This document shows, piece after piece, positions 25,406 to 31,013 of a DNA stretch of 31,013 bases (the stretch's first letter is position 1; every line of letters begins with the position of its first letter). This DNA is from a virus. Location: positions 1 to 31,013 of the IMG/VR virus record IMGVR_UViG_3300046009_002052. One strand, given 5' to 3'. A program made the translations under genes and the position numbers. A model generated the notes under the pieces. It was given only the letters and a program-made list of their open reading frames with translations. It was not told the origin of the DNA and ran no database searches.

Positions 25406-25795
25406 CTATTGGTAGGTATCCCAAATGTAATTTAGGTGATTAATCATTTCTTGCCATGCCTTGGGATTGCAATGGCAGGGATGGTATATCTTTTTACGCT
25501 GAAATAAACGGGTGTACATCTGTGCAATGTGATTGGTTTCATCAGGCATTATCTCCGTGCTATTCTTATCCCTGAATGTAGTCCACCAATTGTACTCCTC
25601 CTCCGTCATACATAGGGGTTGCCTCCGTGGGAATAATGCATTTAACTTATTCTTACGTTCATCGCATCCGCAGTCCTCACCTGCCACAAATTTAACTACC
25701 TCTTTAATCCCAGTCGCTTTCGTGAACTTCTCCACTGAATCCCCCAATCCTTGCGATGGTTTCTTGGTCTGCTTTCTGTTGTATGTATTGCTCAT
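25406..25795 (-). CDS. Conserved Cys-rich phage protein of unknown function
   Basis: The 129-residue protein has a basic N-terminus (KQTKKPSQ), then GLGDSVEKFTKATGIKEVVK (about 16-35), EDCGCDERKNKLNALFP (40-56), LCMTEEEYNWWTTF and a late HPCHCNPKAWQEMI. The Cys pairs C-G-C and C-H-C could bind a metal. The GLGD-VEK-TKATGIKxVVK and DCGCDERKxKLN signature looks familiar as a conserved gene of Bacteroidota phages, role unknown. Its first 31 codons overlap the end of the sigma-like gene in another frame. Confidence 0.75.
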   Translation of the reverse strand: MSNTYNRKQTKKPSQGLGDSVEKFTKATGIKEVVKFVAGEDCGCDERKNKLNALFPRRQPLCMTEEEYNWWTTFRDKNSTEIMPDETNHIAQMYTRLFQRKKIYHPCHCNPKAWQEMINHLNYIWDTYQ

Positions 25796-26294
25796 ATAAT
25801 TCTTTTGAATGGTTTTTAATGTGTTGTTTTGCGTTTTTTAAGGTGTTATAAACCGATGTAACTGTTATGCCTGTACGTTTCTCAATTTGCCGTAAACTAT
25901 GCCCATAGACAAAATACAATTCCAAAATCATTTGGTCATATTCATGCATCGTGTCAATTACCTCCTTAATCCGTGCCATCAATTGTTGATACCTGTATTC
26001 GGATTCTTCGGGAGATTCTATTGGGTTAAATTGTGCCTCATGGTCATATACCTTGTTCTCTGCACGATATACGTTAATAACTGCCGATTGTAGAATTTTA
26101 AAAATGTAAAATGTATTCACACCACCTGATGGTGTTTCCAATCGTTGCAATGAACCCTCTGTTTCCTGTATTTCCGCTAATTTTAAATACATATTCTGAA
26201 CACAATCGTCAATATCCCCCCACCTTGCACCAAGGTAATTAGCCATTTTTCTCCATTTGACCTCATCCTTTGCTATAATTTCAAGGGTTAACAC
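25704..26294 (-). CDS. Sigma-70-like RNA polymerase factor
   Basis: The product has 196 residues from a GTG start; the next ATG is codon 17 and would cut into the first helix. WGDIDDCVQNMYLKLAEIQ (about 25-43) resembles region 2 of ECF-type sigma factors. YDQMILELYFVYGHSLRQIE and KRTGITVTSVYNTLKNAKQH (about 118-158) form a region 4 helix-turn-helix. It would bind host RNA polymerase and direct it to late phage promoters, which may explain why few later genes have host-type promoters. The last 92 bases overlap the next gene. Confidence 0.75.
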   Translation of the reverse strand: MLTLEIIAKDEVKWRKMANYLGARWGDIDDCVQNMYLKLAEIQETEGSLQRLETPSGGVNTFYIFKILQSAVINVYRAENKVYDHEAQFNPIESPEESEYRYQQLMARIKEVIDTMHEYDQMILELYFVYGHSLRQIEKRTGITVTSVYNTLKNAKQHIKNHSKELYEQYIQQKADQETIARIGGFSGEVHESDWD

Positions 26295-28768: not shown

Positions 28769-29587
28769 TTATTGATTTTCAGGTAATTGTAAAGTGTTTC
28801 TTTGTAAATGGTCAATTCTTTTAGTTTCCTCTTCAATAGCTCGGTTTAAATCATCAATCAACGGGTTTCTACTCTGTATTTCATCCTTAAATCTTTTCTT
28901 ATTTAGGTAAGTTGAAAAATGCGGAATGTATTTAGGATCATCATATTTATGAGCTTTAATGTATTTTGGTAGATGATTTCCTATTTCGTGGATTTCAGCA
29001 ATGGTTAACTTATCCCAAGCCTTTTTCGCATCTGCTTTGCCTTCCTTTCGCAAATACGATTTCCAAGCAAATTCAAATAAATCGTCTTTACTATATTCCT
29101 TACCTGAAATCATCAGGGTTTTAGGTGTTTTATCTTTTTTTGGTTTTTCGCCTAATAGTATTAATTTATTTAAATTATCATCTATATTTATATTTACATC
29201 TTCATCTTCATTTTCATTTTCATTTTCCATATGTTCATCATATGTTTTAGATGTGTTTAACATATGTTTTTCTTCTTCTATTTCTTTAACTTCTTGATTA
29301 TCTTTCTTTTGTCTGTTTTTACGCCTTGAATCAGAATAGTTTTTCCGTTTTTCAACTTCATCAAATAATCGTTGGTTGCGAAATTTTCCATCAATTTTGT
29401 CAAACTTGGAATAAATATCTTCATCATATGTATTACATATGAATAACATATCTTTTTCAGTTAAATCACCTTTTTGGTGTTGCATACATAACAATCGTAT
29501 GTACTTACCCACTTGATCGTGAGTCATTGTCATTGTACCTGTTAAAAAATCACTTGTGTAAAACAGGAATGCTGGGTCTTTGCTCAT
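28769..29587 (-). CDS. DUF1376/DnaD-like replication initiation protein
   Basis: The product has 272 residues from the ATG at 29587. The N-terminus (MSKDPAFLFYTSDFLTGTM, then TMTHDQVGKYIRLLCMQHQ) is the winged-helix pattern of DUF1376/YdaU-type phage replication proteins. A Lys/Glu linker follows, then an Asn/Glu/Asp low-complexity stretch (about 120-140, built on a repeated six-base unit) and a C-terminal helical domain (LFEFAWKSYLRKEGKADAKK, PKYIPHFSTYLNKKRF) resembling DnaD-type helicase-loading regions. The frame stays open to 29653, but that part is a terminator hairpin and poly-U tract, so I exclude it. It is preceded by an unusual leader. Confidence 0.8.
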   Translation of the reverse strand: MSKDPAFLFYTSDFLTGTMTMTHDQVGKYIRLLCMQHQKGDLTEKDMLFICNTYDEDIYSKFDKIDGKFRNQRLFDEVEKRKNYSDSRRKNRQKKDNQEVKEIEEEKHMLNTSKTYDEHMENENENEDEDVNINIDDNLNKLILLGEKPKKDKTPKTLMISGKEYSKDDLFEFAWKSYLRKEGKADAKKAWDKLTIAEIHEIGNHLPKYIKAHKYDDPKYIPHFSTYLNKKRFKDEIQSRNPLIDDLNRAIEEETKRIDHLQRNTLQLPENQ

Positions 29588-29598
29588 TTTTTTTGCAT

Positions 29599-29651
29599 AA
29601 AAAAAGCCCATCGAATCTGCGGTAGTGAGAGTACACGCAAACCCAACGGGC
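29599..29651 (-). terminator. Strand-specific leader terminator/attenuator hairpin
   Basis: On the minus strand GCCCGTTGGGTTTGCG (29651-29636) pairs over all 16 positions with CGCAGATTCGATGGGC (29621-29606): 11 Watson-Crick and five G-U pairs, with a 14-base loop. Seven T follow (29605-29599). On the plus strand the same five positions are A-C mismatches, so the structure is made by minus-strand RNA. It ends 12 bases before the start codon of the replication gene, as in transcriptional attenuation. Confidence 0.8.
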
Positions 29652-29669
29652 AATAATCTTTTAACTTTC

Positions 29670-29686
29670 GGAATCTCTCACATTCC
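29670..29686 (-). promoter_or_regulatory. Small leader hairpin with loop complementary to the attenuator loop
   Basis: On the minus strand GGAAT-GTGAGAG-ATTCC forms a five-bp stem with a seven-base loop. All seven loop bases (GUGAGAG) are complementary to CUCUCAC in the loop of the attenuator (29625-29631). This allows a kissing-loop contact or a competing fold in the same RNA. Confidence 0.5.
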
Positions 29687-29697
29687 AGTTAACAATA

Positions 29698-29729
29698 CGA
29701 ATATAATAAAAAAATCTTATCTTTGTCAA
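29698..29729 (-). promoter_or_regulatory. Candidate minus-strand promoter for replication gene
   Basis: TTGACA (29729-29724) lies 18 bases before TATATTCG (29705-29698), one mismatch from TAnnTTTG; counted from the TTG, the spacing is 21, as in Bacteroidota promoters. The left copy has GGCACA at the first site. It overlaps the oppositely directed promoter at 29718-29725, so the two could exclude each other. Confidence 0.35.
29718..29725 (+). promoter_or_regulatory. Plus-strand promoter -7 element, right copy
   Basis: TATCTTTG is an exact TAnnTTTG match directed rightward, identical to 45-52. The three bases that differ between the copies (29727-29729) come just after this element, in the spacer before the predicted start of transcription. 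Confidence 0.45.
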
Positions 29730-29730
29730 G

Positions 29731-29791
29731 ATTGTTTTCAAAATTATCCGTTCATAGATTTATAGGGGGTGTAATAACCCCCTATTTTTTT
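29731..29791 (+). ncRNA. Candidate small RNA, right copy
   Basis: This has the same predicted transcript of about 60 nt as 58-118, ending in the terminator at 29762-29791. It is antisense to the intergenic RNA between the SSB-like operon and the replication gene. Such a counter-transcript upstream of a replication initiator is reminiscent of plasmid copy-number control RNAs. Existence of the RNA is inferred from promoter match, terminator and conservation. Confidence 0.42.
29762..29791 (+). terminator. Intrinsic terminator, plus strand, right copy
   Basis: The stem ATAGGGGGT / ACCCCCTAT with loop GTAATA is followed by T residues on the plus strand, identical to 89-118. The T-run includes the first bases of the stop codon (complement) of the 107-residue gene. 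Confidence 0.75.
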
Positions 29792-30113
29792 AAAGCTTCT
29801 TTGCGTTCTTTTCTGCTAACTTGATTCGTTTAAATTCCTCAAAGTTTGGTAATTTTTTACCATTGTCTTTTGATTCACCTGGTATCAATTCACGCAAATG
29901 TGATAATTCCCATTCCAACAAATCTTCTCGTTTACACCAATGATTAACTTTTCTTGTTTCCTCCGCTTCATAGCGTTTAAAAATATCAATTAAAGTTAAA
30001 ATTGGTATAGATACACTCATTGAATCATTCTCGTTTTCATTTAATGCCAATATGCTTAATAACATACCCTCGGATATCAAATGAATTTCTTTTGGATCAA
30101 CTATATTTTTCAT
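29790..30113 (-). CDS. 107-residue hypothetical protein present only in right repeat copy
   Basis: The protein begins MKNIVDPKEIHLISEG. It has a hydrophobic helix (MLLSILALNENEN), ILTLIDIFKRYEAEETRK and a basic C-terminus (FEEFKRIKLAEKNAKKL). No family is recognised. It is linked to the upstream gene by an ATGA overlap, and its stop codon lies in the T-run of the plus-strand terminator. The left repeat copy lacks the gene cleanly between the same two neighbours, so this is an insertion/deletion between strains or paralogous blocks. Confidence 0.7.
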   Translation of the reverse strand: MKNIVDPKEIHLISEGMLLSILALNENENDSMSVSIPILTLIDIFKRYEAEETRKVNHWCKREDLLEWELSHLRELIPGESKDNGKKLPNFEEFKRIKLAEKNAKKL

Positions 30114-30517
30114 AACTTTTTCTTCAATTGAATACTAACTGCATTAGGTTTATAATTGGCAACTGGCATCAATTCACCATCATCGGTTACAATCTGCAAT
30201 CCTTTTTCGTATTGCTTAAATGCATCCTGATAATTACCCTCCATCTCTTTTAATTGTTCTTTTAATTGGATGTATTCAGGTATGTGGTCATAGGAATACC
30301 GACCTCCTACACTACCTACCTTTATCTCATACCCACGGTGTTGTTGTCCGTTGTAACGTATTGCCTCATCCATTGCAGCCTCTTTTAACGCATTTATAGC
30401 GTCATTTAAGGCATTTTCTACCTCTTTGAGGTCTATGTATGTATCAAATGGCGAGATATTGCCCTGTATCGCATTATACAGGGTTGTGTTGATTGTTTCA
30501 ATTATATTGTTGCTCAT
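30110..30517 (-). CDS. Conserved phage protein of unknown function (right paralogue)
   Basis: The product has 135 residues from the ATG at 30517, two bases after the upstream stop, the same arrangement as 117-524. It is about 94% identical to that protein; changes are mild (for example Val-Glu to Ile-Gln and Gly to Glu in the middle helix). The pattern of mostly conservative changes shows both copies are under selection as protein. The frame stays open to 30526, but that start would overlap the SSB-like gene. Confidence 0.8.
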   Translation of the reverse strand: MSNNIIETINTTLYNAIQGNISPFDTYIDLKEVENALNDAINALKEAAMDEAIRYNGQQHRGYEIKVGSVGGRYSYDHIPEYIQLKEQLKEMEGNYQDAFKQYEKGLQIVTDDGELMPVANYKPNAVSIQLKKKL

Positions 30518-30519
30518 AA

Positions 30520-31013
30520 TTACCAAGGAATATCGTTTGACAAATCGTTGGTGATTTCATCCACCGCATCATTTAAAAAATTGTTTTCGATGCCTCCCTT
30601 TTCTGCTTTGAAAAGATTTTCGGGTTTCTTGGGTTCTGCTTTCTTGGTTGCAGGATTGTTTCCAGTCATTACCCATTGTTCAAAAATCTGTGCTAATGGT
30701 ATAATTTCATTAATCTCCATTTTGCCGTGGTTAATGTAAATATCCGTTGCAACCTTTAACACACTCATCCGTGAGATACGAGCTTCCTTTTCGGGGTCGG
30801 CAGGTTGTGGCTTCCATCCACCTTTGCCCTGTTGTAAATTCATTGCAGGTTTAATTGTGTAGTACAATTTGCCGTTTACATCCTTACTGGTGATGGTGTA
30901 CGATGCCTCATCCCCTACCTTGAATTTAGTTTGTTCAGGTTCTTTACTCATGTACTGCCCTGAATCCCCATTCTCAAATACAATTTCGAACTTATAAAAA
31001 GTTCCATACTGTT
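30520..31013 (-). CDS. Putative ssDNA-binding protein (right copy, 5' end cut by window)
   Basis: At least 163 residues are encoded and the N-terminus lies beyond the window. The frame is open to the last complete codon at 31011, reading QYGTFYKFEIVFENGDSG, which aligns with residues 22 onward of the left copy. It has the same body as 527-1093, but a shorter linker and a different acidic tip ending TNDLSNDIPW, even closer to the SSB end DDDIPF. This supports functional conservation of the tip. Confidence 0.75.
   Translation of the reverse strand, partial: QYGTFYKFEIVFENGDSGQYMSKEPEQTKFKVGDEASYTITSKDVNGKLYYTIKPAMNLQQGKGGWKPQPADPEKEARISRMSVLKVATDIYINHGKMEINEIIPLAQIFEQWVMTGNNPATKKAEPKKPENLFKAEKGGIENNFLNDAVDEITNDLSNDIPW

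Follow-up and report, generated by a model that had tools for sequence, protein, structure and literature searches.

Leader RNAs with covarying complementary hairpin loops precede unrelated replication genes of Bacteroidota phages

The stretch of viral DNA analyzed here (31,013 nt; hereafter the window) is a 31-kb record of a tailed-phage contig whose two ends overlap as two strain variants, positions 1–1032 matching the last 1.3 kb (29674–31013) with 88% identity. This overlap indicates that the window phage probably has a circularly permuted genome of about 29.7 kb, nearly all of which is covered by the record. One of the two overlapping ends lacks the 107-aa ORF found at 29790–30113. The phage encodes an ordinary large terminase. 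Neither an integrase nor a repressor was found among the window proteins searched, and classical lysogenic immunity is therefore not expected. The protein encoded at 25704–26294 carries a sigma-70 region 4 domain (Sigma70_r4_2) and is possibly a phage transcription factor for promoters of the kind described below. The replication gene (28769–29587, minus strand) encodes a DUF1376/DnaD-like protein that matches phrog_9327 (E = 3e-16), annotated in PHROG as a primosomal / replication initiation protein, and that has no Pfam match at E 0.001. Its start codon lies at 29587 (MSKDPAF...), and most relatives use the same start.

Upstream of this gene, the minus strand carries the elements of a compact leader. 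A Bacteroidota-type promoter, recognizable from its sequence at 29698–29729 (−33 TTG at 29729–29727; −7 element TATATTCG at 29705–29698), is followed by a first hairpin, H1 (29661–29692), which folds into an outer helix, UUAACU/AGUUAA, and an inner helix, GGAAU/AUUCC, and has the core UGGAAU[GUGAGAG]AUUCCG. An A/U-rich spacer (29652–29660), evident in sequence and alignment, separates H1 from a second hairpin, H2 (29606–29651), which comprises a 16-bp stem, a one-base bulge, and a 3-bp apical stem, GUA/UAC. The H1 loop, GUGAGAG (29675–29681), is complementary at all seven positions to the H2 loop, CUCUCAC (29625–29631), and folding together with covariation identifies the two as kissing partners. 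Seven U residues (29599–29605) follow H2, which is predicted to be an intrinsic-terminator stem, and this U-tract would form the 3′ end of a short leader RNA. The leader RNA measures about 95 nt overall, and the minimum free energy (MFE) of the window copy is −34.3 kcal/mol, compared with −22.2 (sd 3.3) for dinucleotide shuffles (z = −3.67; 0/200). At the other contig end (1–87), the minus strand repeats the promoter and the 5′ portion of the leader with 97% identity; this copy runs out with the contig after the H1 loop. Upstream of the complete copy's promoter lies an inverted repeat, AGGGGGTTATTACACCCCCT, with T/A-rich flanks (29764–29783), which may act as a terminator and so insulate the promoter of the leader.

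A preliminary description of this locus had reported a fully paired 16-bp stem with five G-U pairs followed by seven U; folding and a string search confirmed it, the pairs being contiguous. The complementarity of GUGAGAG and CUCUCAC, also reported there, extends over all seven bases, but the 14-base loop in which it had been placed is in fact tighter, the three apical base pairs leaving exactly CUCUCAC. Nor does the U-tract directly precede the start codon of the replication gene, as had been supposed: the AUG at 29598 opens a four-codon ORF, AUG CAA AAA AAA UGA (29584–29598, minus strand), and the gene itself begins at 29587. The warning that an N-terminal extension from the TTG at 29653 is an annotation trap proved sound, as the resulting 294-aa reading crosses H2. 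The stop codon of the micro-ORF overlaps the start codon of the gene (AUGA), apparently also in L208, an arrangement that would suit translational coupling. Micro-ORFs of the form AUG CAA (AAA)n UGA recur right after the U-run in the window and at L208, L054, L087, and L097.

The same kind of leader sits before replication genes of many Bacteroidota viruses. Among protein relatives of the replication gene in viral contigs, a leader of the same layout lies directly before the gene, or in other relatives before a small gene or an endonuclease-like gene located ahead of it, and the letters of the two loops change in step. Where the leader directly precedes the gene, the end of H2 lies about 4–23 nt from the start codon. 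Across elements, the complementary loops are 6–9 nt long. Of 72 elements, 67 have a TAnnTT[TCG]G box in the 60 nt preceding H1, compared with 9% of random places, and in all 73 elements the longest U-run within 12 nt after H2 is 4–8 long, although in some members it is only 4 long and preceded by extra bases. The layout of an intrinsic terminator, a G+C-rich stem with an immediate U-run and then the gene, is found in the window and in its relatives.

Since requiring complementarity in a scan would make the argument circular, three less biased tests were used. When leaders were folded first and their loops compared second, 39 of 90 distinct leaders matched their own partner loop over at least 6 nt, compared with 2.7% of cross pairs; in a promoter-anchored version, 48 of 106 distinct leaders matched, compared with 3.1%. 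Both versions undercount members because the loop often shrinks from 7 nt to 3 nt in the MFE structure, which makes selection by the H2 scaffold alone, blind to the loops, the cleaner test. Leaders selected in this way had a perfect 7–8-nt match in 40 of 41 distinct cases, with 11 loop sequences represented, and the single nonmatching leader is without the rest of the layout. The strict motif gave 0 matches in 271,752 bases of dinucleotide-shuffled loci. A scaffold pattern relaxed to two mismatches was discarded, its match rate being about that of the reversed control and six of its best places holding no credible element.

Covariation was assessed in a MAFFT alignment of 19 window-type leaders drawn from those already matching, in which 133 of 133 kissing cells are Watson-Crick paired and five of the seven loop–loop positions have double compensatory changes. 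Cells with double changes number 26, compared with 6.0 in shuffles, and the loop–loop covariation score is 0.596, compared with 0.186 in shuffles and reached by 0 of 500 of them; when the loop alignment was slid, only 29–66% of cells paired. The inner helix of H1 is paired in 97.9% of cells, with double changes at all five pairs, and the H2 stem in 85.4%, with double changes at eight pairs. The stems covary via G-C/G-U exchanges, which are typical of RNA. A covariance model built without the pseudoknot retrieves subfamilies outside its training set, namely L007 (E = 1e-7), L409 (5e-9), L150 (1e-5), L208 (5e-5), and L001 (6e-4), and the leaders are thus, at least in part, one RNA family. The most divergent alleles (e.g., L389, L335, and L432) score at the borderline, and layout and position suggest their common descent with the others.

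These results bear on three further points of the preliminary description. It had judged the loop match to exceed chance, and relatives indeed retain the match with other letters; it had called for compensatory changes in relatives, and the loops there vary heavily, yet are compensated rather than broken. Its proposal of an attenuator or riboregulator fits the RNA layout and the compensated loop pairing, while termination and switching are predicted features. What it missed is that the element is a widespread, exchangeable module with many alleles, common to unrelated replication genes, which points beyond a purely cis-acting attenuator.

Window-type leaders precede four unrelated kinds of replication gene, DUF1376-like, DUF6291, HTH_36, and Lin1244_N, and a DnaB-like helicase or primase gene is often next. 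As a forward test, regions upstream of DUF6291 genes in named phages were inspected. Isolates of Lillamyvirus, Muminvirus, and Hattifnattvirus carry the element with GUGAGACG/CGUCUCAC, Elemovirus carries it with UGAGAGC/GCUCUCA, and two further cultured phages, Flavobacterium phage 11b and Olleya phage Harreka_1, carry it with CGGGCAGG/CCUGCCCG and GUGGUGG/CCACCAC, respectively. Cellulophaga phages phi13:2 and phi19:3 (L486 and L496) have a complementary pair, CUCUCACAA/UUGUGAGAG, without a clear first hairpin; their loop duplex is that of the window with the sides swapped (CUCUCAC/GUGAGAG). The element is absent from one faecal phage and from all three DUF6291 phages of gammaproteobacteria that served as negative controls (two Vibrio, one Aeromonas). 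Where a Lillamyvirus-type phage has a NUMOD4-HNH endonuclease gene, a second element lies directly before that gene (at 1110–1200 in L482, and in the same place in several others) with the allele GUCGUCG/CGACGAC, so that two alleles are present in one genome. In L250, a contig in a Clostridia MAG, an element with GUCGCAGU/ACUGCGAC lies 534 nt ahead of a DUF1376-like gene; either mis-binning or a wider host range could account for this. A covariance-model search of 395 bacterial genomes, with 10 candidates per genome scored, returned nothing, which is weak evidence on bacterial chromosomes. The Rfam check that the preliminary description had suggested likewise gave no lead, Rfam 15 having 0 matches at the gathering score, C4 antisense RNA included, in the window and nine further carrier loci. 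Searches of the open-access PMC literature found no account of the element, subscription papers and preprints lying outside their scope.

In all, about 35 loop alleles were found, and cross-pairing between them is low, at least 6 nt of pairing being shared in 10 of 1332 ordered allele pairs. Their exchange is apparent among ten contigs that have a small gene and a DUF1376-like gene in common. On both sides, the flanks of L291 and L292–L294 are about 98% identical, but the RNA between them is a different one over the stretch that begins immediately behind the −7 box and reaches the U-run. L295 combines the RNA of L292 with an upstream flank of the L296–L300 type, and L296–L300 have identical RNAs despite differing flanks. 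Genes at least 97% identical are preceded by different kissing sequences in 45 of 101 pairs (the pairs being nonindependent), and RNA identity is about 0.78 between alleles, a value overstated because gaps were ignored, compared with 0.98 within them. One allele is shared by all cultured Lillamyvirus-type phages examined, and likewise one by all four elemo phages. By these sequence comparisons, the RNA is a module that has been moved as a cassette between phages. Such exchange is evidence of recombination, not by itself of selection. A third, seqC-like copy of the loop was rejected as a general feature, since, among 32 alleles, one had its own 6-mer again downstream (2.6 expected) and none had the anti-loop there (0.4 expected). 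The H1 loop is repeated right after the U-run as UUCGCAGC in L438, L441, L414, L423, and L428 and as UGCGGG in L421, giving H2 a choice of two partners. This repeat is confined to a few leaders of the NUMOD4 type, a group located before an endonuclease-like gene.

Transcription attenuation is the simplest reading of a leader whose promoter lies only a few bases ahead of H1 and whose strong second hairpin, with its U-run, comes before the gene. The loops are among its most changeable parts, cassettes are swapped wholesale between otherwise near-identical phages, and one allele stays intact across different neighbors and even across different replication genes, which favors control in trans over control in cis alone and resembles the specificity loci of plasmid copy-control RNAs and P4. 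We therefore favor, with about even confidence, transcription attenuation combined with kissing in trans by the terminated leader RNA, giving allele-specific control of replication. Transcription would begin just upstream of H1 and would mostly end at H2 and its U-run, without reaching the replication operon's first gene; the product would be a free RNA of about 90–95 nt that has two complementary loops. Kissing between the H1 and H2 loops could occur in cis during synthesis and in trans between a finished and a nascent leader, and would set how frequently polymerase stops. As phage copies and leader RNA build up, expression of the replication genes would fall; H2, adjoining the start codon, may also hinder ribosomes. 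Because the loops would decide which RNAs recognize each other, alleles would act as compatibility groups, and a phage with another loop pair could escape the RNA of a related phage in the same cell. Such escape may have diversified the cassette and promoted its exchange, and would amount to selection for orthogonal loops.

The main rival is an attenuator confined to cis, in which H1, the first hairpin to fold, uses its loop to capture that of H2 as the latter emerges in the same molecule. The resulting pseudoknot would modulate the terminator, or how readily ribosomes reach the start codon adjacent to H2, and alleles would drift by paired changes and spread by ordinary recombination. The leader anatomy fits this account, as do the proximity of H2 to the start codon in directly preceding leaders (about 4–23 nt) and the constant presence of both partners in one molecule; since an intramolecular kiss is possible, trans action is unnecessary to explain the covariation. 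However, an element acting only on itself has no reason to have about 35 alleles, and neither the replacement of whole cassettes between genes 97–100% identical nor the persistence of a single allele unchanged across diverged flanks is explained. Moreover, once the outer helix of H1 has formed, a spacer of 9 nt seems short for kissing within one molecule. We regard this account as possible but rather doubtful.

Two other readings give the RNA a different task. It could be a standalone small RNA that oligomerizes, in principle like phi29 pRNA, with the gene merely downstream. Two mutually complementary loops within one short RNA of predicted termination, and covariation resembling that of interlocking loops, speak for this, but the element always heads a replication operon or an endonuclease gene and is untied to packaging genes, the window phage has an ordinary large terminase, and the loops differ between very close relatives, so that we consider oligomerization improbable. 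Alternatively, the leader could mark an origin, its transcript priming replication or regulating priming like ColE1 RNA II. Its position before a replication initiator and its ColE1-like 7-nt loops suit this role, which is nonetheless made very improbable by the occurrence of an element with another allele before the NUMOD4-HNH endonuclease gene of the same genomes, no hybrid-forming tract having been noted. That the hairpins arose by chance around an ordinary terminator can be dismissed, common as terminator-like hairpins before genes are, because the loop–loop covariation (133/133 cells; 0/500 shuffles), the loop-blind retrieval, and the shuffle controls contradict it.

Bacteroidota phages are abundant in waters and the gut, and to our knowledge little is known of how their replication is controlled. 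The leader, present in culturable phages and before unrelated replication genes, with highly variable but perfectly compensated loop pairs, offers a direct handle on the timing of replication in these phages and on whether related ones exclude each other. The set of alleles also provides a natural collection of kissing loops that are presumably orthogonal. More tentatively, and with somewhat less than even confidence, we propose that the leaders are a new class of phage RNA in which dozens of mutually exclusive loop alleles would provide self/non-self recognition among co-infecting Bacteroidota phages, including seemingly strictly lytic ones, and control the onset of replication or copy number, the cassette moving between unrelated replication modules much as immunity or incompatibility regions do.

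The closest parallels are found among RNA-based systems of phages and plasmids. In P4, a leader-derived RNA halts transcription of the phage's own replication genes, and this CI RNA pairs with complementary stretches (seqA/seqB/seqC) of the replication-operon leader from which it comes (PMC4825925). Complementary segments inside a replication-operon leader are also what we find here. However, the P4 RNA arises by processing of the leader and has one target upstream and another downstream. The kissing leader, in contrast, has two hairpins with one loop pair, H2 itself being the predicted intrinsic terminator, and exists in many alleles; moreover, no lysogeny genes were found among the window proteins searched. 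We know of no sequence relation between the two RNAs. In ColE1, loop–loop contacts start RNA pairing, and loop sequence sets compatibility, changed loops creating new compatible origins (PMC9458437). The fully complementary loops of about 7 nt in RNA I/RNA II have their counterpart here, but the ColE1 partners come from opposite strands and control a primer, whereas here both loops and the U-run lie on one sense strand and the leader precedes a protein-coding replication operon. The plasmids pT181 and pIP501 attenuate transcription of their rep genes by antisense RNA, following a copy-number logic that depends on a leader terminator. A terminator in the leader of a replication initiator is likewise predicted here, but no separate antisense gene is evident, the complementarity lying inside the sense leader. 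IsrK of Gifsy-1 resembles the proposed scheme in that one phage promoter yields a short terminated RNA and a read-through mRNA, the short RNA acting on the long one in trans; it differs in activating the translation of its target and in having no described kissing-loop alleles. The phi29 pRNA is likewise a short phage RNA with complementary loops, the right loop of one molecule joining the left loop of the next, but its role is in packaging and its fold and position are different. By analogy, the kissing leader would work like P4 CI RNA or the ColE1 loops while being a member of neither group. The principle of controlling replication genes by RNA loop–loop contacts is already known from plasmids and P4; what appears new is the architecture, in which both partners lie in one sense leader, the terminator loop serves as a partner, and dozens of alleles are distributed over unrelated replication modules.
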